DNA of 64,000 nucleotides, from contig NZ_JAQSCU010000013.1 of assembly GCF_029945535.1 (NCBI RefSeq), forward strand, positions 559,522 to 623,521, in the 5' to 3' direction. Positions 38,952 to 54,881 of the stretch are shown one piece after another. Both the position numbers and the translations under genes were made by a program. The number at the start of each line of letters is the position of its first letter. The stretch's first letter is position 1. The notes below the pieces were generated by a model, which saw only the letters and a list, made by a program, of their open reading frames with translations, had not been told where the DNA came from and did not search any database. The DNA comes from Methylotenera sp. (lineage in GTDB: Bacteria; Pseudomonadota; Gammaproteobacteria; Burkholderiales; Methylophilaceae).

Positions 38952-39428
38952 TTATAAAAAACGATCCAGAAGTTTTCTGCTGGGCTTATCTAGTTTGTCT
39001 ATCTCTGGAATCAAAAAATCAATACCGTGACTATCTGAAATAAGCAGGCTGGTGTGTGTTAATCGTCGAATATGATCTTCAGATTTTAACGTGAGCGTTG
39101 CCTCACCGCGATTCGTCATTAGTTGCCAAGTGCTAGGCGTAGCAAAGCTGGAGACGTGTATGATGCGATGAATTTCCGGCATGAATTCCCTTTGCGTCAG
39201 TTCCTCTGCAACCAGCGCGCGTATCTCTTCTGGCAACTCTGACAGTTGATTAATCCATGCCAGTTCATGACCTTCACGACTCATCAATGAGAGTCCTTCA
39301 TCAGTCGCAGAGATTGGAAAAGCACGAACAGGATACACGCCATTGTGAACCTCGTTACTACGTGTGGTGAGTTGCAATTGCCCTGCGGGATTGCGTATCA
39401 GTTTGAAGTCTTCAAAAGTTTGTTTCAC
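38952..39428 (-). CDS. Cyanophycin-associated DUF1854 family protein
   Basis: 158 aa: [52 protein letters not shown], and [31 protein letters not shown] at the end, as in the DUF1854 family found with cyanophycin synthetases. It is predicted to be soluble and beta-rich with no catalytic motif. It overlaps the ABC transporter gene by 4 nt, so the two products probably work together. Confidence 0.85.
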
Positions 39429-41743
39429 GATGATGTGTTCATTTCTTTACTGGCAATTCCGTCCTCAGAACTTAAATCATCTAAATCAGTATCCACATTT
39501 CTAGCTTGAGCCTGATAAAGTCGATAATAAGCGCCTTCTTTTGCCATCAACTCGTCGTGGCTACCAATTTCAACTACTTCGCCTTGGTCTAACACCACTA
39601 AGCGGTTTGCCTTATGCAAAGTAGAAAGACGGTGGGCAATGGCAATAGTCGTGCGGCCTTGAACCAAGTTATCCAGTGCTTTTTGAATTTCTTTTTCAGT
39701 TTCTGTATCTACTGAGGCTGTCGCTTCGTCCAGAATTAAAATATGCGGATCAATCAGCAATGCGCGCGCAATTGAAATACGCTGACGTTCGCCGCCAGAT
39801 AAGCCGTGTCCACGTTCACCAACTAATGAATCATAGCCATGCGGTAGCCGTAAAATAAACTCGTGAGCATGCGCAGCGCGAGCAGCAGCGACGATTTCAG
39901 CTCGGCTTGCATCAGGTTTTCCGTAGGCAATATTGTCTGCAATGCTGCCAAAGAAAAGGAAAGGATCTTGTAATACTAGCCCAATATTACGTCTATATTC
40001 AGAAATAGGTAAAGAGCGAATATTGACACCATCTAGGCTGATTGAACCACTGGAAACATCATAAAAGCGGCACATCAGATTAACTAAAGTACTTTTACCC
40101 GAGCCGCTATGGCCAACCAGCCCTATCATTTCACCGGGTTGTATGGTCAGGTTGATGCTTTTAATCACAGTGCGATTGCCGTAACGAAAGCCTGCATTAG
40201 TAATTTCAATCTTGCCGGTGACTTTTTCTAAGTGTACTGGGTTAGTCGCTTCAGGAACGCTAGAAACATGATCAAGAATATCAAAAATACGTTTGGCGCC
40301 AGATGCAGCTTTTTGTGTGACTGAAACAATGCGGCTCATGGAATCTAAGCGCGTATAAAAGCGGCTGATATAGGCAAGAAAAGCAGTTAATACACCCACG
40401 CTGATTTCGTTACGAGACACTTGCCAAATACCAAATGCCCAGACTAATAACAAGCCAATTTCAGTCAGTAAAGTCACACTGGGCGAGAAAAGTGACCAGA
40501 TTTTGTTAATGCGGTCATTCACTATCAGGTTCTGTTGATTAGCTTCACGGAAGCGGGTTGCTTCACGATTTTCTTGCGCAAAGGCTTTCACCACGCGAAT
40601 ACCAGGTATCGTATCGGCTAACACATTGCTTACTTGCGACCATACTCGGTCAATCTTTTCAAAGCCTGTACGCAGGCGGTCGCGAACCAGATGAATCATC
40701 CATGCAATGATGGGCAGTGGTAGCAGTGTGATAAGCGCTAGCTTGGCATTGATAGAGATTAAAATCGCAGCCGTCATGATAATCATCAGTACGTCGGTGG
40801 CAAAATCGAGTAAATGTAAGGATAGAAATACACAGATTCGGTCAGATTCTGAGCCGATGCGTGCCATTAAATCGCCGGTACGTTTGCCGCCAAAATACTC
40901 TAGGGAAAGTCGAAGCAGATGCTCATAGGTAATCGTTCTAAGGTCAGCCCCGATACGCTCGCTTACTAAAGCCAGAATGTAAGTGCGCGCCCAGCCTAAA
41001 CTCCACGCCAATAACGCTGAACCTAGCAAGCCGATAAGCAGCAAGGAAACCAGACCTTTATCAATAGGCACGCCATTTTGATAGGGAATCAGCACCTTAT
41101 CCATTAGCGGAATTGTTAAATAGGGTGGCACCAAGGTCGCAGCTGTTGATGCTAACATCAGCAAAAATCCAGCAAGCAGCTGCCATTGGTAAGGTTTTGC
41201 AAAGCGCCACAATCTGAAAAGCGTCCAAGTTGAGGGTGGTGCGTCTAAGGTGCGACTACATTGCGGACATTCGTCTTGATCTGCAGTCATGGGGAACTGG
41301 CATTTTGGACATGGTTCCGTTGGTTCTATGCTGATAGCCTGCCCAGTGACAAGACTGGTAATTTGTTGCGCAAACTGCTTAACGAAACGTAGGGCTGCCG
41401 TGTTGTTTTCTAAGGTCAGAAACCAGTACGCTATTCGTTTTTCTTCCTCAAATAGCTCGATTTTTCCTACGCCAGCATGGTCGTGATAATTGAGCTTTAA
41501 ATTCGCACCATATTGAAACTCAATACTTTGCGCAGCGCTATCCAGCGCTTGCAACTCAATATGCAGTAAACGTTGATTGGTAACGACCAACAAGCTCTTC
41601 TTAAAATGAAGCCTGTTATCCAGATTGATTTCCAACCAGCCATGCATCGTTTCAGCATTCATTAATCGTGCAGACACGATAGTTTGCCAGTCATCAGGCA
41701 GTGGTTTTGGCGCGGAGTTTAAATGTTGTATTTGCTTGTTCAC
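39425..41743 (-). CDS. ABC exporter of the cyanophycin-associated family
   Basis: 772 aa from a GTG at 41743. Residues 1-135 are a soluble N-terminal domain; a zinc ribbon follows (CPKCQFPMTADQDECPQC, about 143-160). Six membrane helices span about 175-450. The nucleotide-binding domain has Walker A GLVGHSGSGKSTLV, signature LSGGERQRISIARALL and Walker B HILILDEATASVD. A single half-transporter works as a homodimer. The N-terminal domain and zinc ribbon are unusual for exporters. It is divergent from cphA' across a 128-bp control region. Confidence 0.9.
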   Translation of the reverse strand: MNKQIQHLNSAPKPLPDDWQTIVSARLMNAETMHGWLEINLDNRLHFKKSLLVVTNQRLLHIELQALDSAAQSIEFQYGANLKLNYHDHAGVGKIELFEEEKRIAYWFLTLENNTAALRFVKQFAQQITSLVTGQAISIEPTEPCPKCQFPMTADQDECPQCSRTLDAPPSTWTLFRLWRFAKPYQWQLLAGFLLMLASTAATLVPPYLTIPLMDKVLIPYQNGVPIDKGLVSLLLIGLLGSALLAWSLGWARTYILALVSERIGADLRTITYEHLLRLSLEYFGGKRTGDLMARIGSESDRICVFLSLHLLDFATDVLMIIMTAAILISINAKLALITLLPLPIIAWMIHLVRDRLRTGFEKIDRVWSQVSNVLADTIPGIRVVKAFAQENREATRFREANQQNLIVNDRINKIWSLFSPSVTLLTEIGLLLVWAFGIWQVSRNEISVGVLTAFLAYISRFYTRLDSMSRIVSVTQKAASGAKRIFDILDHVSSVPEATNPVHLEKVTGKIEITNAGFRYGNRTVIKSINLTIQPGEMIGLVGHSGSGKSTLVNLMCRFYDVSSGSISLDGVNIRSLPISEYRRNIGLVLQDPFLFFGSIADNIAYGKPDASRAEIVAAARAAHAHEFILRLPHGYDSLVGERGHGLSGGERQRISIARALLIDPHILILDEATASVDTETEKEIQKALDNLVQGRTTIAIAHRLSTLHKANRLVVLDQGEVVEIGSHDELMAKEGAYYRLYQAQARNVDTDLDDLSSEDGIASKEMNTSS

Positions 41744-41797
41744 GGCTGCTGAGTTTACTACAATCGTACAAGCTTACAAATAAATATAAATCGTTTA

Positions 41798-41831
41798 CTG
41801 TCAGCTTTCTGTCAGTTAAATGCGATAAAAT
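41798..41831 (+). promoter_or_regulatory. Probable PhoB box and -10 for the cyanophycin operon
   Basis: CTGTCAG (41798-41804), 4 nt, CTGTCAG (41809-41815): two direct repeats with an 11-bp period, the PhoB-box layout (consensus CTGTCAT-N4-CTGTCAT). A -10-like TAAAAT (41826-41831) begins exactly 10 nt after the second repeat, where PhoB-dependent promoters have it, and no good -35 is present. The expected transcript runs to cphA' (ATG 41872). Confidence 0.7.
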
Positions 41832-41871: not shown

Positions 41872-44034
41872 ATGCAATTTCTGAAAATATTACCTCTGCA
41901 TGGCCCCAATATATGGACATATCGTCCGGTGCTAGAGGTATGGCTAGATATTGGTGCGTTAGAGGATTCACCATCCAACACCATCCCAGGTTTTTATGAG
42001 CGACTTAGCTCATGGCTTCCTTCTTTGATTGAACATCGTTGCGGCATAGGCGAGCGCGGTGGATTTTTATTGCGGGTAAAAGAAGGTACTTGGGCTGGTC
42101 ATATATTGGAACACGTAACCCTCGAGCTGCAAACTTTGGCTGGTATGCAAGGCGGTTTTGGTAAAGCGCGCAGCACAGCCGTGCGAGGCATTTATAAAGT
42201 TGTTGTACGTTCACGTAATGAAAAAGTCAGTCGAGCAGCATTAAATGCAGGACGCGACTTGATTATGGCTGCGATAGAAGATAAACCATTTGACGTTGCG
42301 GCAACCGTTGCAACGCTACGCGAACTGGTGGATGACTATTGCTTAGGCCCTAGTACTGCTTGCATAGTAGATGCTGCAACAGAATTACGCATTCCATCTA
42401 TCCGTTTGACAGAAGGTAATTTAGTGCAGCTTGGCTATGGCGCTGCACAGCACCGTGTATGGACTGCTGAAACAGATATGACCAGTGCGATTGCCGAAGG
42501 CATTTCACGTGACAAAGATTTAACCAAGCAATTACTACAAAATTGCGGCGTGCCAGTGCCAGAAGGCCGCATTGTAGAAAGCCCTGAAGATGCTTGGGAA
42601 GCGGCTGAAGATATTGGTTTACCCGTTGTTGTAAAACCAAGTGATGGTAACCATGGACGTGGTGTTTCTACTGAATTGATGACGCGCGTTGACGTGGCGG
42701 CTGCATTCAAGCTCGCTGACGAAGAGGGCAGTGAGGTGATTGTTGAGCGATTTATTCGCGGTAACGAGCATCGTCTGTTAATTGTGGGCGGCAAATTAGC
42801 TGCCGCAGCGCGAGGTGAGTCCGTTTCAGTGATTGGCGATGGCGTGTCTACCATTCGCCAGTTAATCGATCTCCAAGTCAATACAGATCCTAGAAGAGGC
42901 GAGGCCGAGGAGTTTCCTTTGGAGCTTCTGCAGATTGATGAAACGCCATCAGTCATTTTTGAAATTCAACGACAAGGGTATACGCCTGACTCAGTATTGC
43001 CAAAAGACACGTCTATTATCGTGCAGCGTAATGGCAATGTGGCGATTGATGTAACAGATTTAGTTCACCCAGAAGTTGCTGCAGTAGCCGCCTTAGCTGC
43101 ACGTATTGTTGGTCTTGATATTGCTGGTATTGATATGGTGGCGGAAGATATTTCTCGTCCGCTAGCTGAGCAAGGCGCTGCGATAGTTGAAGTGAATGCA
43201 GGGCCGGGTTTATTGATGCATCTTAAACCAGCGCAAGGCGAGGCGCGACCTGTAGGCAAGGCGATTGTTGAAAGCTTATTTAGCAGTGAAGACTCTGGTC
43301 GAATCCCACTTGTAGGTATCGCAGGTACCCATGGAAAATCACAAGTTGCTCAAATTGTTGCCAGTTTAATTCAGCTTAGCGGCTTGCATACAGGCCTAGC
43401 CTGTGCAGATGGTTTATATGTAGATGAGCGTCAATTAGATAAAAAAGATTGTGCTAATTGGACTGCGGCTCAGAAGTTATTGATGAATCGCAAAGTGCAA
43501 GCGGCGGTGATTGAGAATAGTGCTTCTACCATTTTAGGTGAAGGATTAGGCTACGACCGTTGCCAAGTGGGCGTTATCACGAATATTGAACCAGAGAAGC
43601 ACTTCGGTGAATATTACATAGACACCATTGAGCAAGTTTACAATGTGATGCGCACACAAGTAGATCTGGTGCTGGATAACGGCGCGGCTGTGTTGAATGC
43701 TGAAGACCCATTAGTGGCAATGATGGCTGAATTATGTGATGGCGAAGTGATATTTTTTGCCCAAGATGCAGGATTAGAGATTGTGAGTGAGCATTTAGCC
43801 AACGCTGGGCGGGCAGTAATATTGCATGATGGATACATTGTGTTAGCCAATGGAAAAGCCAAAACACCTTTGGTGAGCTTGGCGGCTATTCCTGCGTTGA
43901 ATAATCAGTCTCAAACAATAGGAATTACAAGCTTTTTGGCTGCCGTAGGCGCTGCATGGGCACTTGGAATTTCGCTTGATCTGATTATTACTGGTATCAA
44001 AACATTCGTACCTAAACATGCCAATGTCGCTTAA
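41872..44034 (+). CDS. Cyanophycin synthetase paralogue CphA' (C-terminally shortened)
   Basis: 720 aa from ATG 41872; a longer open frame to 41701 is not supported because the homologous N-terminus starts MQFLKILPLHGPNIW. The protein has the N domain and ATP-grasp domain (PVVVKPSDGNHGRGVS, IVERFIRGNEHRLLIV, AAIVEVNAGPGLLMHL) and the Mur-ligase-like middle domain, but ends at GIKTFVPKHANVA, where CphA continues with the APGRFNFFEYRG...DYGHNPDA domain. The P-loop reads GTHGKSQ instead of GTNGKTTT. It may add only one residue type (Asp) or assist CphA. It is first in the operon. Confidence 0.88.
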   Translation: MQFLKILPLHGPNIWTYRPVLEVWLDIGALEDSPSNTIPGFYERLSSWLPSLIEHRCGIGERGGFLLRVKEGTWAGHILEHVTLELQTLAGMQGGFGKARSTAVRGIYKVVVRSRNEKVSRAALNAGRDLIMAAIEDKPFDVAATVATLRELVDDYCLGPSTACIVDAATELRIPSIRLTEGNLVQLGYGAAQHRVWTAETDMTSAIAEGISRDKDLTKQLLQNCGVPVPEGRIVESPEDAWEAAEDIGLPVVVKPSDGNHGRGVSTELMTRVDVAAAFKLADEEGSEVIVERFIRGNEHRLLIVGGKLAAAARGESVSVIGDGVSTIRQLIDLQVNTDPRRGEAEEFPLELLQIDETPSVIFEIQRQGYTPDSVLPKDTSIIVQRNGNVAIDVTDLVHPEVAAVAALAARIVGLDIAGIDMVAEDISRPLAEQGAAIVEVNAGPGLLMHLKPAQGEARPVGKAIVESLFSSEDSGRIPLVGIAGTHGKSQVAQIVASLIQLSGLHTGLACADGLYVDERQLDKKDCANWTAAQKLLMNRKVQAAVIENSASTILGEGLGYDRCQVGVITNIEPEKHFGEYYIDTIEQVYNVMRTQVDLVLDNGAAVLNAEDPLVAMMAELCDGEVIFFAQDAGLEIVSEHLANAGRAVILHDGYIVLANGKAKTPLVSLAAIPALNNQSQTIGITSFLAAVGAAWALGISLDLIITGIKTFVPKHANVA

Positions 44035-46713: not shown

Positions 46714-49700
46714 ATGAACACCACCAGTGGTCAACACCCTGTGCCCAGTATTTTATTCGGCCAGAATCAAGCAGAACTAATCGTTATTGAGGTTCTTGCT
46801 GATATTTTTGAGACTACCGCGACGCGTTTACCCAATCAAATCGCTTTGATTTTTGGCGAACGCAAGCTTAGTTATTTTGAACTGAATAATAAGGCGGATC
46901 TTGCGGCCTCACATTTGATTGACCATGGCGTTAGTCCTGGGCAGATTATTGGTCTTTGGCTGCCACGCGGCATAGAGTTGCTGGTGATGCAGTTGGCTAT
47001 TGCTAAAACTGGCGCTGCTTGGTTACCCTTTGATGCAGATACGCCAGCAGAACGAGTAGTTGTTTGTTTGAGTGATGCAAATGCTTTTGGCCTAATTAGT
47101 TGTGATACGTTTATCAAGCAGTTAGGCAGTTTATCTACCACAACATGGGATGCTGAGAGTTTACTTAACCCAGCTAAGCAGACGTTAAAAAGACGTGTTG
47201 GCGCCTTGCCTGAGCATCCTGCTTACGTGATTTACACTTCCGGTTCTACTGGTAAGCCTAAGGGTATTCTGGTAAATCAAGGCTCAATCTGTCATTTCTT
47301 GCGTAGCGAAAACAGTCGACTAGGCGTTACCACCTCAGATCTTGTTTATCAAGGTTTCTCAGTGGCATTCGATATGTCTTTTGAAGAAATCTGGATTAGC
47401 TACCTTGTGGGCGCTACGCTATGGATTGCACCAAAAGAACTAGCGACCGATGCAGACGCATTGCCACAAGCTTTATTTGAGCAAAAAGTGACGGTACTGC
47501 ATGCGGTGCCAACTTTACTAGCATTGTTCAATCGTGAGTTGCCCAATCTGCGTATTGTTAACCTCGGTGGCGAAGCTTGCCCTGAATCTTTGGCCAATAA
47601 ATGGGCTACTCCTGAACGTCAAATGTTTAATACTTACGGGCCTACGGAGGCGACAGTATCGGCTTCATTGGCTCAATTGCAAGCTAATGAAGCAGTGACT
47701 ATCGGCCTGCCGCTACCTAACTACATATTGCTCGTAGTTGATCCTGATCCGTCGGTTAGCTTGCGCTTACTTGATCGTGGCGAAACCGGTGAGTTGTGTA
47801 TCAGTGGGCCAGGTGTAGCAATTGGTTATCTTGGACGACCAGACCTTACTGCCGAGAAGTTCCTAAACAACCCATTTGCAACGGGACAGCATGACCAAAG
47901 GCTCTATCGCACGGGTGATCTTGCAAGAATTGATGAGGCCGGTCGAGTTCAATGTTTAGGTAGAACTGATGATCAAGTCAAAATTAGAGGTTTTCGCGTT
48001 GAGCTAGGCGAGATTGAAGCCGTGCTTTGCGCCCAAGATAGCATAGGAACTGCTGCGGTAATTTTACGACAAGATGATGGTATGGAGCGTTTAGTCGCTT
48101 ATGTCGTGAGCGAAAGTGGCGAAGGTATTGCGGCGTCGCAATTACGTGTAGCTTTAGCCGAAACCTTACCGCCTTATATGGTACCAGCCTATTTTGTGAC
48201 CCTCGCAGAAATGCCACGCCTTACTTCCGGGAAGATTGATCGGAAAGCCTTGCGAGCTTTACCTTTAAGCGTGTTGGCAGATGAAAACAGTGATTCAGAT
48301 AGCCCAGAGAACCAAGCTGAAGAAGTTCTGTTTACTGCCCTAAATAGACTTTTCCCTGGTCAATCGATACGTCGCGAAGCCGATTTTTTTACTGATTTAG
48401 GTGGTCATTCGCTATTGGCGGCTCGGTTAGCTTCGGCAATACGAGCTAATGAAACGTTTTCTAGTTTTACCGTGCGTGATGTTTATCAACATCGCCAAAT
48501 TGGGCGTATCGCCGAAATTTTAAATGAAACGCCCGCTAATTTACCCGTTGTAGAGTCTACTTGGGTGCCACCATCCACGACTAAACGATGGCTATGTGGT
48601 GCGGCGCAAGCTGTAGTGGTGCCAGTGTTGGTGTTGTTGCGCATGTCACAGTGGTTGGCCTCATTTTTTACTTACCACTTCTTTACTGGTGACCCGGGCG
48701 ACTCTATCGCGGAAGCTATTGCAGCTTCCATAGGCGTATTTCTTCTAGTCACAGTGCTTAGTTTTGTCGTGGCAATCTTTGGTAAATGGCTGGTTGCAGG
48801 CAAGCTTAAAGCTGGACGCTACCCGTTGTGGGGGGTAACTTACTTCCGCTGGTGGCTGTCTGACCGCTTAATTGAAGGCGCACCTTTGTATATGTTAGGC
48901 GGCTCTTCGCTATATGTGTGGTGGCTGCGTGCGCTTGGCGCGAAAGTTGGCCGTGAGGTTAATATTAGTTCAGTTTCGTTACGTGCTCATGACTTATTAG
49001 AAATCGCTGATGGCGTCAGTATTGGCAATGCGGTCAATTTAGAAAATGCCAGAGTAGAGCATGGCGAGTTAATCTTAGGCAATATTTTCATTGCTAAGGA
49101 AGCCTGTGTCGATTCCTATGCGGTATTGGAAGGCAATACCAGTGTAGGAGAGTACGGTCGTGTTGAAGGCCTTTCTGCATTGAGTGATGGTATGCATGTG
49201 CCAGCGAAGCGTATTTGGAGCGGTTCGCCAGCAAAAGATATGGGTGCTTTTGATGAAAAGTCACACGTGCCACGTCCTGAAGTTTCTAAAGTTCGCTTAT
49301 TTTCAGAAGCTGTATTTTTTATATTTGGCGTGTTAGTTACAGCGGTGCTGTTTTTCATACCGATTTTCCCCAGCATGATGTTGGTCGATCGTATGGATGA
49401 AAGTTATCCATGGCTTGAGCATGGCAGTACCTCATTTCAATTAGTTAAATACTTCTTCTTAGCATTTCCAGCTATTGCTGTGCTAATCGTCTGTACAGCT
49501 TTGATTTCTGCGGCATTACGCTGGGTAGTCTTAATGCGTTTAAAAGCTGGTCGTTGGCCAGTGCACAGCAATGTGTATTGTCGCCGTTGGTTGGTTAATC
49601 AAATTCAGGAATCAAGTTTAAACATTCTGCATGGTGTTTACGCTACCGTATATGCGCCATTTTGGTACCGGTTATTGGGTGCAAAAGTAGGGCGCGATGC

Positions 49701-50721
49701 TGAAATCTCCACAGCGCAAGGCGTTGTGCCAGATTTACTGACGCTGGGAGATGAATCATTTATCGCCGATGGTGTCATGTTAGGTGATGAGTCTATACAA
49801 GGTGGCTGGATGCAGACCCAGCCGACCGTTATTTCCAAACGCAGCTTTGTTGGCAATGGTGCTTACATCCCGGATGGTACTGTCATTCCTGAAAATGTCT
49901 TAATAGGCGTTCATTCACGTGCACCTAGCAATCAAGTGATGAGCAAAGGCGACACTTGGCTAGGTTCGCCAGCTATTAATCTATCTGCGCGGGAAGAAAC
50001 CATTGGAATGTACCCTGAATCGCTGACATTCCGCCCATCAATGTTGCGTAGAATAGGGCGCGCATTAGTGGAGGCTTACCGTATTGTGACACCACACGCC
50101 GTGGTGATTGCTGTGGGTTACACCGTAGTGCTTAATGCCATGCCTTATGCTGCTGCTGCGCAATGGTGGATAGTAGCTTTACACTTGGTTGTAGCTGGAC
50201 TGTTGTACGGCTTGGGCGGCTTTGTTTTTATCGCAATCCTTAAATGGATACTGATTTTTCGCTACGACAAGCGCTCTCAGCCAATGTGGACGCCTTTTGT
50301 TTGGACGTCGGAAGGTATCACTAACCTTTATGAGGGCCTTGTGGTGCCTAATTTTATGCGCTATTTACGCGGCACTCCGTGGTTGCCCATGGCATTTAAC
50401 TTGTTAGGATGTCATATTGGACGAGGCGTGTATTTAGATACCACTGATTTGACCGAATTTGACTGTGTAACGATTGGCGAATACAGCGAACTCAACGCGC
50501 TTGTATGTCCGCAAACCCATCTGTTTGAGGACAGAATCATGAAAATTGATCACGTGAATATCGGCAAGCGAGTGAGTATCGGTGCGCGTAGTACTGTACT
50601 TTACAGTGCCCACGTGGCAGACAACGTCAAGTTAGGGCCACTCACATTGGTGATGAAAGGCGAAAGTATTCCTGCTAATTCGCGTTGGTGGGGCTGTCCA
50701 GCGATTCCAGATCGGTCATAA
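46714..50721 (+). CDS. Pls/PosA-type non-ribosomal peptide synthetase with membrane and hexapeptide-repeat domains
   Basis: 1335 aa. The adenylation domain (about 25-515) has A3 YTSGSTGKPKG, A4 AFDMSFEEIW (with the Asp that binds the amino group), A5 FNTYGPTEATV, A7 YRTGDLAR and A10 GKIDRKAL. The carrier domain carries DLGGHSLL with the Ser near residue 562. After that come about six membrane helices separating three left-handed beta-helix units (for example IADGVSIGN...VEHGELILGNIFIAKEA). This is the plan of epsilon-poly-lysine synthetase (Pls), which links amino-acid monomers without a thioesterase. The substrate and product are unknown. It follows cphA and directly abuts a carrier-activating transferase. 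Confidence 0.92.
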   Translation: MNTTSGQHPVPSILFGQNQAELIVIEVLADIFETTATRLPNQIALIFGERKLSYFELNNKADLAASHLIDHGVSPGQIIGLWLPRGIELLVMQLAIAKTGAAWLPFDADTPAERVVVCLSDANAFGLISCDTFIKQLGSLSTTTWDAESLLNPAKQTLKRRVGALPEHPAYVIYTSGSTGKPKGILVNQGSICHFLRSENSRLGVTTSDLVYQGFSVAFDMSFEEIWISYLVGATLWIAPKELATDADALPQALFEQKVTVLHAVPTLLALFNRELPNLRIVNLGGEACPESLANKWATPERQMFNTYGPTEATVSASLAQLQANEAVTIGLPLPNYILLVVDPDPSVSLRLLDRGETGELCISGPGVAIGYLGRPDLTAEKFLNNPFATGQHDQRLYRTGDLARIDEAGRVQCLGRTDDQVKIRGFRVELGEIEAVLCAQDSIGTAAVILRQDDGMERLVAYVVSESGEGIAASQLRVALAETLPPYMVPAYFVTLAEMPRLTSGKIDRKALRALPLSVLADENSDSDSPENQAEEVLFTALNRLFPGQSIRREADFFTDLGGHSLLAARLASAIRANETFSSFTVRDVYQHRQIGRIAEILNETPANLPVVESTWVPPSTTKRWLCGAAQAVVVPVLVLLRMSQWLASFFTYHFFTGDPGDSIAEAIAASIGVFLLVTVLSFVVAIFGKWLVAGKLKAGRYPLWGVTYFRWWLSDRLIEGAPLYMLGGSSLYVWWLRALGAKVGREVNISSVSLRAHDLLEIADGVSIGNAVNLENARVEHGELILGNIFIAKEACVDSYAVLEGNTSVGEYGRVEGLSALSDGMHVPAKRIWSGSPAKDMGAFDEKSHVPRPEVSKVRLFSEAVFFIFGVLVTAVLFFIPIFPSMMLVDRMDESYPWLEHGSTSFQLVKYFFLAFPAIAVLIVCTALISAALRWVVLMRLKAGRWPVHSNVYCRRWLVNQIQESSLNILHGVYATVYAPFWYRLLGAKVGRDAEISTAQGVVPDLLTLGDESFIADGVMLGDESIQGGWMQTQPTVISKRSFVGNGAYIPDGTVIPENVLIGVHSRAPSNQVMSKGDTWLGSPAINLSAREETIGMYPESLTFRPSMLRRIGRALVEAYRIVTPHAVVIAVGYTVVLNAMPYAAAAQWWIVALHLVVAGLLYGLGGFVFIAILKWILIFRYDKRSQPMWTPFVWTSEGITNLYEGLVVPNFMRYLRGTPWLPMAFNLLGCHIGRGVYLDTTDLTEFDCVTIGEYSELNALVCPQTHLFEDRIMKIDHVNIGKRVSIGARSTVLYSAHVADNVKLGPLTLVMKGESIPANSRWWGCPAIPDRS

Positions 50722-51312
50722 ATGCTTCAGCAGCGGCTTTCTGTATTAGAGTGGCCAAATGACGCAGGCAAACTAATTCCAGAAAATGGCTTGCTTGTCA
50801 TTGCCTTGCGAACATCGCCAAACATGCAACGTGCAGAAGCTAGGCAGTTAGTGCGAGTCGCGGTTCAAGAGGTGTTAGCTTTATTGCTGCATTGTGATGT
50901 GAATGAAATAGACTTGCTTTCTCAAGCAGGTCAAGCAGTTAAGCTACTAAATAAAAATCACAATATTGGGCTTTCTATTAGCCATGAAGTTGGGCTGTCA
51001 CTGGTCGCAATCAATATGAGTGGCTCTGTTGGTATCGACTTAATGGTGATCAATAGTGTTCCTGATGACGCAGAGTTACGAACGCTAGCCATTGAGTATT
51101 TGGGTGTAAACATTGCGGAACGTATTCTTAACGGGCCAATACAGGCGCACAAAGAAGCTTTTGCAATGGCATGGACCGAGTTTGAAGCCAGCCTAAAAGC
51201 GAAAGGTGAAGCATTAATCGAATGGAGCGCAGCTAGAGATGAAAAACTTGAAAGCCTCAATGTTTGTAGCTTAGTTCTAGATAATGGCTATGTCGCTGCT
51301 ATAGCTTACTAA
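50722..51312 (+). CDS. 4'-phosphopantetheinyl transferase superfamily protein
   Basis: 196 aa. The transferase signatures are present: GSVGIDLMVI (metal-binding Asp) and AWTEFEASLKAKGE (the W..KE..xK element in a varied form with Glu and Lys kept); SISHEVGLSLVAI is the usual SH strand. It would convert the apo carrier domain of the preceding NRPS with CoA. The ATG follows the NRPS stop with no gap, which ties the two functionally. Confidence 0.88.
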   Translation: MLQQRLSVLEWPNDAGKLIPENGLLVIALRTSPNMQRAEARQLVRVAVQEVLALLLHCDVNEIDLLSQAGQAVKLLNKNHNIGLSISHEVGLSLVAINMSGSVGIDLMVINSVPDDAELRTLAIEYLGVNIAERILNGPIQAHKEAFAMAWTEFEASLKAKGEALIEWSAARDEKLESLNVCSLVLDNGYVAAIAY

Positions 51313-54232: not shown

Positions 54233-54398
54233 GTTTAATTTGCTTCTTTCTGAAGCCTTAAATTTAGCGGCATTTTATCAGAAAATAAAACCCATCGTAT
54301 TTCTGATAGGTTTCTCATGCGGGGTTTTCACAACACTCAGCCAAGTAAAAATAACTTTTTAGATAGATGTCAGGTTCTTGTAAGCAAAGTCATGCAAT

Positions 54399-54881
54399 AT
54401 GAATCCTAGAAAATTAGTTTTCCCAAATTATTTACAAGCTGAGGGTAATAAATATATGGCAATGATGGCTGGCATTCATTTAGACAGTACGATGCAACTT
54501 ACTAACTTGCTGGAGCTAGGCAAAGATTATTGCAGCGATCATTTAGGTCGCTTTTTTCAAAACAAATATTCGCAACTTGCGCCTGTGGCTAATAAATTTG
54601 AAATCCCTGCTAAGCTTGCTACAAAGAATGAGCAAGACTGTTTTGCTATCTGTGTAATGATGAATAATCATATTGTAGACATAAAATATTTCAGCGAAAT
54701 ATTTCAAGATTGGGATAATAATGCGCACCTAGAAAGCTCATCGTCAAAACAAAACTCGGAGAAATTCAGCACATTTATAAACGATCATAGATTGCTATCT
54801 GTCATCAAGCGATTTAAGAAAATTAATGATGAAATTGTGATTGGACGATGCCTAGGTCGCGAATTCACCGCCATTTATTAA
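54399..54881 (+). CDS. Hypothetical protein
   Basis: 160 aa with no family I recognise. It is predicted to be soluble and largely helical, with few special features; motifs such as FINDHRLLSVIKRFKKIND near the end look like a folded helical domain. ATG 54399 has no strong ribosome site. Its stop overlaps a small convergent frame by 4 nt. Confidence 0.5.
   Translation: MNPRKLVFPNYLQAEGNKYMAMMAGIHLDSTMQLTNLLELGKDYCSDHLGRFFQNKYSQLAPVANKFEIPAKLATKNEQDCFAICVMMNNHIVDIKYFSEIFQDWDNNAHLESSSSKQNSEKFSTFINDHRLLSVIKRFKKINDEIVIGRCLGREFTAIY

Follow-up and report, generated by a model that had tools for sequence, protein, structure and literature searches.

The tandem repeat in front of the cyanophycin genes of this Methylotenera genome is predicted, with a probability of about 0.8, to be the operator of RR-X, a TctD/PmrA-like response regulator of the OmpR family. 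The window, by which we mean the whole stretch of 64,000 nucleotides analysed, carries two CTGTCAG half-sites split by CTTT at an 11-bp period in place of a −35 element. Ten bases (41816–41825) separate the second half-site from TAAAAT, and the cphA' ATG at 41872 lies 40 bases downstream of that hexamer (Table 1). The first-pass annotation had described this geometry and had read it as a PhoB box, through which phosphate starvation would turn on cphA', cphA, the NRPS and the PPTase. The observation is confirmed; control by PhoB and phosphate is unsupported by a comparison with the Pho promoters of the family, and RR-X is the best candidate. RR-X is favoured because the repeat is conserved, mismatches the Pho boxes and recurs in the promoter of RR-X itself, because RR-X and cphA' occur together, and because a residue of the RR-X recognition helix agrees with a base of the half-site.

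Table 1. Coordinates of the features discussed, numbered from the first base of the window.
Feature	Position	Strand	Remarks
DUF1854 protein, cyanophycin-associated	38952..39428	-	NF052234 219.6 bits, cut-off 150
ABC transporter, cyanophycin-associated, divergent	39425..41743	-	NF052233 1409.7 bits, cut-off 880
Upstream half-site CTGTCAG	41798..41804	+	position-7 G, base-5 C; kept in relatives
Downstream half-site CTGTCAG	41809..41815	+	11 bp from first half-site
-10-like hexamer TAAAAT	41826..41831	+	ten bases past second half-site
cphA', cyanophycin synthetase-like, 720 aa	41872..44034	+	NF010623 1063.5 bits, cut-off 877; TIGR02068 764.1, below cut-off 850
cphA, cyanophycin synthetase, 856 aa	44107..46677	+	TIGR02068 982.1 bits, cut-off 850
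NRPS, Pls/PosA type	46714..50721	+	presumed on cphA'-cphA transcript; TIGR02353 782.2 bits, cut-off 423.1
Phosphopantetheinyl transferase-like protein	50722..51312	+	weak matches only: NF042922 33.2 bits, cut-off 370; Pfam none
Second tandem repeat of the same kind, TGTCAGGTTCTTGTAAG	54368..54384	+	ten bases before CAATAT
Small protein, 141 aa, downstream of second repeat	54456..54881	+	start set by likeness to G084; Pfam none at E ≤ 0.1

Profile scores bear out the earlier gene calls, with cphA', cphA, the NRPS and the weakly recognised PPTase-like gene in a row. The closest named match of the window cphA', among the matches listed, is a Methylotenera MAG with 94% protein identity. The NRPS belongs to the Pls/PosA class of homopolymer (polycation) synthetases. 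Among seven relatives examined, it adjoins cphA in G084; it is absent beside cphA in G005, G006, G007, G021 and G022, and the G143 contig is too short to tell. Since the NRPS and PPTase-like genes adjoin cphA in this genome and G084 and in none of the five other relatives with enough sequence, control of the NRPS and PPTase-like genes by the repeat would be specific to this clade. On the other strand, the ABC gene may be transcribed without a leader, as judged by eye from a −10-like TAAACT at 41752–41757 eight bases before its GTG. Many relatives have a similar −10-like word at this gene, TAATAT in others, again by eye.

The pattern CTGTCAN5CTGTCA has a single exact match in the genome (3,006,219 bases), namely the window site. 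About 0.4 exact matches are expected by chance, as estimated from base counts, and the single match is by itself unremarkable and within chance. With one mismatch the pattern is found at nine further places, the phoB promoter among them, and with up to two mismatches it occurs 168 times against 113 for the reversed pattern. A true PhoB box, at which PhoB would activate cphA' under phosphate starvation through CTGTCAG-CTTT-CTGTCAG, thus has points in its favour: all bases of the TGTCA core are there, the 11-bp and ten-base geometry fits, and PhoB and boxes of its own exist in this genome. Phosphate limitation reportedly raises cyanophycin in Acinetobacter, a point made in the first-pass annotation. 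A search of one review (PMC2043089) found no passage on phosphate. In Pseudomonas aeruginosa the Pho box consists of two (T)GTCAT boxes with a 5-nt spacer, according to the available part of PMC4513871.

PhoB as main regulator was tried first, with a Pho matrix made from the family itself, and was rejected on position 7 of the half-site and on the matrix score. For this matrix, tandem repeats in front of phoB and of pstS or pstS-like genes were ranked by a score that ignores position 7, and the top one of each upstream was kept if it scored at least 9/10. This level was reached by 24 of 33 phoB upstreams and by all 11 pstS or pstS-like upstreams (seven of the 11 pstS loci fall below the family cut-off, hence "pstS-like"), giving 35 Pho sites. 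The nine excluded phoB upstreams include three, G150, G158 and G163, that are still clearly TGTCAT-like, and some of the others, at least, were misread in offset, their loci being cut at contig ends. The 35 Pho promoters kept carry TGTCA(T/C) repeats, and in 16 genomes TGTCAYN5TGTCAY occurs 61 times and its reversed form 3 times. Position 7 is T or C in 70/70 Pho half-sites and G in none, whereas it is G in 30/30 cphA' half-sites, those of the 15 among 20 upstreams that score at least 9/10. The PhoB-matrix check proposed in the first-pass annotation gave 1.6 bits for the window site, where no Pho training site is below 10.0; the sixteen remaining cphA' sites score from 2.6 to −27.8 bits, so that all 17 fall under the weakest Pho training site. 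The spacer GCTTT also differs from the mostly A/T-rich Pho spacers.

Geometry cannot separate the two kinds of site, since at many Pho sites, too, the −10 follows after ten bases; the letters do. The window site has ten bases to the −10 and no −35, and a ten-base gap after a tandem repeat is also found at RR-X promoters and at phoB and pstS-like promoters. Two TGTCA cores at an 11-bp period are present in the window and absent in those relatives whose RR-X is of the His type described below. In G006, G007 and G022 the cphA' repeat is TGTAAG twice. The PhoB-like look of the window site stems from C at base 5, which holds for the clade with Ser-type RR-X and not for the His-type relatives. The PhoB helix is identical in the nine genomes compared. 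Since PhoB is encoded in 48/52 genus genomes, it does not track cphA'. On these comparisons the cphA' repeat is probably not a Pho box, and activation of cphA' by PhoB alone is highly improbable.

Conservation upstream of cphA' was assessed in 20 Methylophilaceae upstreams assembled far enough, 14 of them from the genus, where 17 genomes have a match, and six from other genera. The tandem TGT(C/A)AG is kept at 11 or more of 12 fixed positions in 15/20, a level reached by 13 of 10,000 mononucleotide shuffles of these upstreams. The half-sites are thus kept in orthologous promoters, the first-pass annotation having named their conservation as a check. Two further upstreams, G018 and G026, score 10/12, and three, G170, G171 and G174, all of the Ser type, have no such repeat. 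Among the 17 upstreams scoring at least 10, the repeat starts at −72 to −75 from the first matched codon in 12; the others start at −84 (G176), −103 (G026), −134 (G005), −135 (G018) and −139 (G021). A hexamer with at least four of the six TATAAT letters stands ten bases past the repeat in 12/17. Because the tandem repeat is conserved upstream of Methylophilaceae cphA', it is very probably a real activator site of the OmpR/PhoB family, as predicted from sequence. Outside Methylophilaceae the repeat was found in 0/66 named cphA' loci (80 named loci minus five shorter than 5,000 bases minus nine of Methylophilaceae). A different element, GTAAACC-spacer-CGTTA, a pattern picked after looking at the sequences, is found in 23 of these 66 upstreams (L081–L147) at a start of −63 to −144; its hosts include Gallionella, Herbaspirillum, Collimonas and Sulfuricella.

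RR-X is encoded outside the window, at C18:21817–22500 of the same genome. Across 16 genomes TGTMAGN5TGTMAG is enriched, with 62 occurrences against 8 when the pattern is reversed, and several of these sites sit in the promoter that separates RR-X from a divergent gene for a small basic protein. The promoter facing away from RR-X again shows the repeat followed, after ten bases, by a −10-like hexamer (TAAATT, TATTGT, TATAGT and others), and the window site has the same arrangement of tandem TGT(C/A)AG at 11 bp, ten bases and a −10. The Ser-type RR-X matrix was built from 10 RR-X promoter sites, that of this genome included and no cphA' site among them; the window site scores 25.2 bits, above the training minimum of 24.7. 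For the His-type matrix (12 sites, training minimum 22.2 bits), the seven His-type cphA' sites score 20.9–24.5 bits, three of the seven falling slightly under the minimum. Mixed Ser-type cphA' sites in G161, G172 and G177 lie outside both ranges, at 14.5–19.6 bits on the Ser matrix and 15.7–17.4 on the His matrix. No repeat was found in the RR-X promoters of Ser-type G165, G170 and G174, nor for four of the 23 His-type proteins, those of G008, G024, G026 and G031, of which G026 does have cphA'.

The two types differ in the residue before RLR in the recognition helix. Of the 37 RR-X-like proteins compared (three further loci had no usable frame), 14 carry Ser here and 23 carry His, with one change on their tree. 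The residue aligns with His195 of PmrA, whose contacts with bases are hydrophobic in the PmrA-DNA crystal, according to the available part of PMC4660055. Base 5 of the half-site agrees with the residue. In the RR-X promoter of the Ser type it is C in all 10 repeats of one scan and in an 11th, that of G154, and in that of the His type it is A in the 12 matrix sites, four more repeats being in another register and three on the other strand. Similarly, base 5 of the cphA' half-sites is 15 C and 3 A in nine Ser-type genomes, and 0 C and 14 A in seven His-type genomes. The co-change of residue and base rests on two promoters and one evolutionary event, and Fisher tests on the base counts overstate independence because the helix difference is a single event. 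Genome-wide, TGTMAG sites show no clean split between the clades (27 C and 33 A in the Ser type, 8 C and 20 A in the His type), so that related regulators may share the motif.

Co-occurrence was scored in 52 genus genomes, with thresholds of E ≤ 1e-60 for RR-X and E ≤ 1e-100 for cphA'. Each is found in 17: both in 16, cphA' alone in one (G137), RR-X alone in one (G164) and neither in 34, with a Fisher p of 2.7e-11 if kinship is ignored. In this table the cphA' of G173, truncated at a contig end, was confirmed by a check, and the RR-X match of G160 is a fragment. In G137, which has cphA' without RR-X, the second half-site has decayed to ATGCAAG; G096, which lies within the clade of the window genome on the phoB tree, has neither gene. 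Close linkage does not explain the pattern, since the two genes are about 0.94 Mb apart in G084, a single contig. Nor does genome size alone, since 23 genus genomes of at least 2.5 Mb and at least 90% completeness, listed by hand and leaving out G167 for its 6% contamination, divide into 8 with both, 1 with cphA' only, 0 with RR-X only and 14 with neither. A kinship test on the phoB tree, which covers 29 of the 52 genomes (G167 was dropped, phoB not being found there), gave four independent well-supported pairs, of which 2.8 changed the same way, 0 the opposite way and 1.2 showed no difference, with a median sign-test p of 0.25. After this correction the support from co-occurrence is weak. Across 80 chosen genomes of the family, an RR-X-like match (E ≤ 1e-55) is present in 44, and the eight with cphA' are all among these; such a match is also found in 36 of the 72 without cphA'.

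Alternatively, another regulator of the TctD/PmrA/QseB subfamily could read the repeat, such as RR-Y or the RR-X paralogue in G143, G172 and G007. Several members of the subfamily exist, some beside TGTAAG repeats, and the helix position of RR-Y is also Ser. Yet RR-Y (E ≤ 1e-60) is found in only 3/52 genus genomes, its own promoter carries a TGAAAG-like repeat whose best TGTMAG score is 10/12, and the window genome holds no second RR-X-like protein at E ≤ 1e-60. RR-Y, considered for its helix Ser, was rejected as reader on this distribution and on its own repeat, and a reader from elsewhere in the subfamily appears unlikely. RR-Y (L331; C18 of this genome, upstream of 157570) is another PmrA/TctD-like regulator, encoded next to an outer-membrane efflux gene, and the three genus genomes with RR-Y all show a similar TGAAAG-type tandem repeat. 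The RR-X paralogue lies near TGTAAG repeats at G143:C66, G172:C238 and G007:C95; at the G143 locus, by eye, the repeat faces a gene resembling a HAD-type phosphatase.

Further repeats were observed in the window genome. The second tandem repeat of Table 1, together with its preceding base, scores 14.5 bits on the Ser matrix (minimum 24.7), 18.7 on the His matrix (minimum 22.2) and −8.6 on the Pho matrix; sites closely resembling it are found in G084 and G090. At C8:54767 a TGTMAG repeat, with a −10-like word ten bases on, precedes an unannotated 177-aa frame. At C13:67114 another, again with a −10-like word at ten bases, is followed by a short protein with sub-threshold TPR matches only and by a DUF4337 protein.

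A reading that overlaps with control by RR-X has PhoB binding alongside RR-X in the clade with C at base 5, where two signals would be integrated. In P. aeruginosa, PhoB and TctD have target promoters in common; however, they bind neighbouring, separate motifs there, according to the available part of PMC4513871. The window site is also poor on the Pho matrix, and such dual control is improbable.

If RR-X is the regulator, two molecules of its phosphorylated form would bind the tandem TGT(C/A)AG where a −35 is lacking and would bring RNA polymerase to TAAAAT, so that cphA'-cphA is switched on; in the clade of the window genome the adjoining NRPS and PPTase-like genes would be switched on too. 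The RR-X dimer may lie head to tail on the half-sites at −35 and touch sigma, as for PhoB. Phosphorylated PhoB is reported to form such a dimer at −35 with a sigma contact; the available part of PMC4660055 gives no direct evidence of this for PmrA. We infer binding, activation by RR-X and the extent of the operon. The Asr-like small basic neighbour suggests acid or envelope stress as the signal for RR-X, acid stress being a guess.

Tentatively, Methylophilaceae may have a two-component system, so far undescribed, that responds to acid or envelope stress and directly controls cyanophycin and, in this clade, a polycation synthetase of the Pls/PosA type. Its regulator and operators may have changed in concert, with His/Ser exchanged at a helix position that contacts bases and A/C changes of the half-site in at least two promoters, yielding a mimic of the Pho box. 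Among the matches listed, no report of a two-component regulator linked to cphA in Methylophilaceae was found in the open-licence literature. Our study replaces a likely wrong annotation of phosphate control by a specific, testable regulator candidate for cyanophycin synthesis in a methylotroph, and would offer a compact natural case of a regulator and its operator changing together. It also warns that a geometry perfect for PhoB can belong to a sister regulator one half-site base apart.

RR-X resembles TctD in that TctD (NF012023) is its best NCBIfam match and the adjoining histidine kinase has a 2CSK_N domain, but its 227.9 bits are under the equivalog cut-off of 337. PmrA half-sites are of the CTTAA type. 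The recognition helix of PmrA/BasR (NF007928; 4S04) aligns without gaps to that of RR-X; Asn196 of PmrA is Arg in RR-X, however, and the score of RR-X against this second-best family, 214.7 bits, is under the cut-off of 330. The divergent neighbour of RR-X recalls the acid-shock protein Asr, being small, basic, rich in Ala, Lys and His and, by eye, apparently secreted; it scores 18.2 bits against Asr (NF033636, cut-off 50) with no Pfam match, and the resemblance may be one of composition only. With the sites of PhoB (TIGR02154) the cphA' repeat shares 7-mers repeated in tandem at an 11-bp period, a ten-base gap before the −10 and the lack of a −35, the geometry of an OmpR/PhoB-type activator. 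It differs in that the cphA' half-sites end in AG where the Pho half-sites end in AT or AC, in that base 5 is C or A, and in that the presence of the cphA' site does not track the presence of PhoB.
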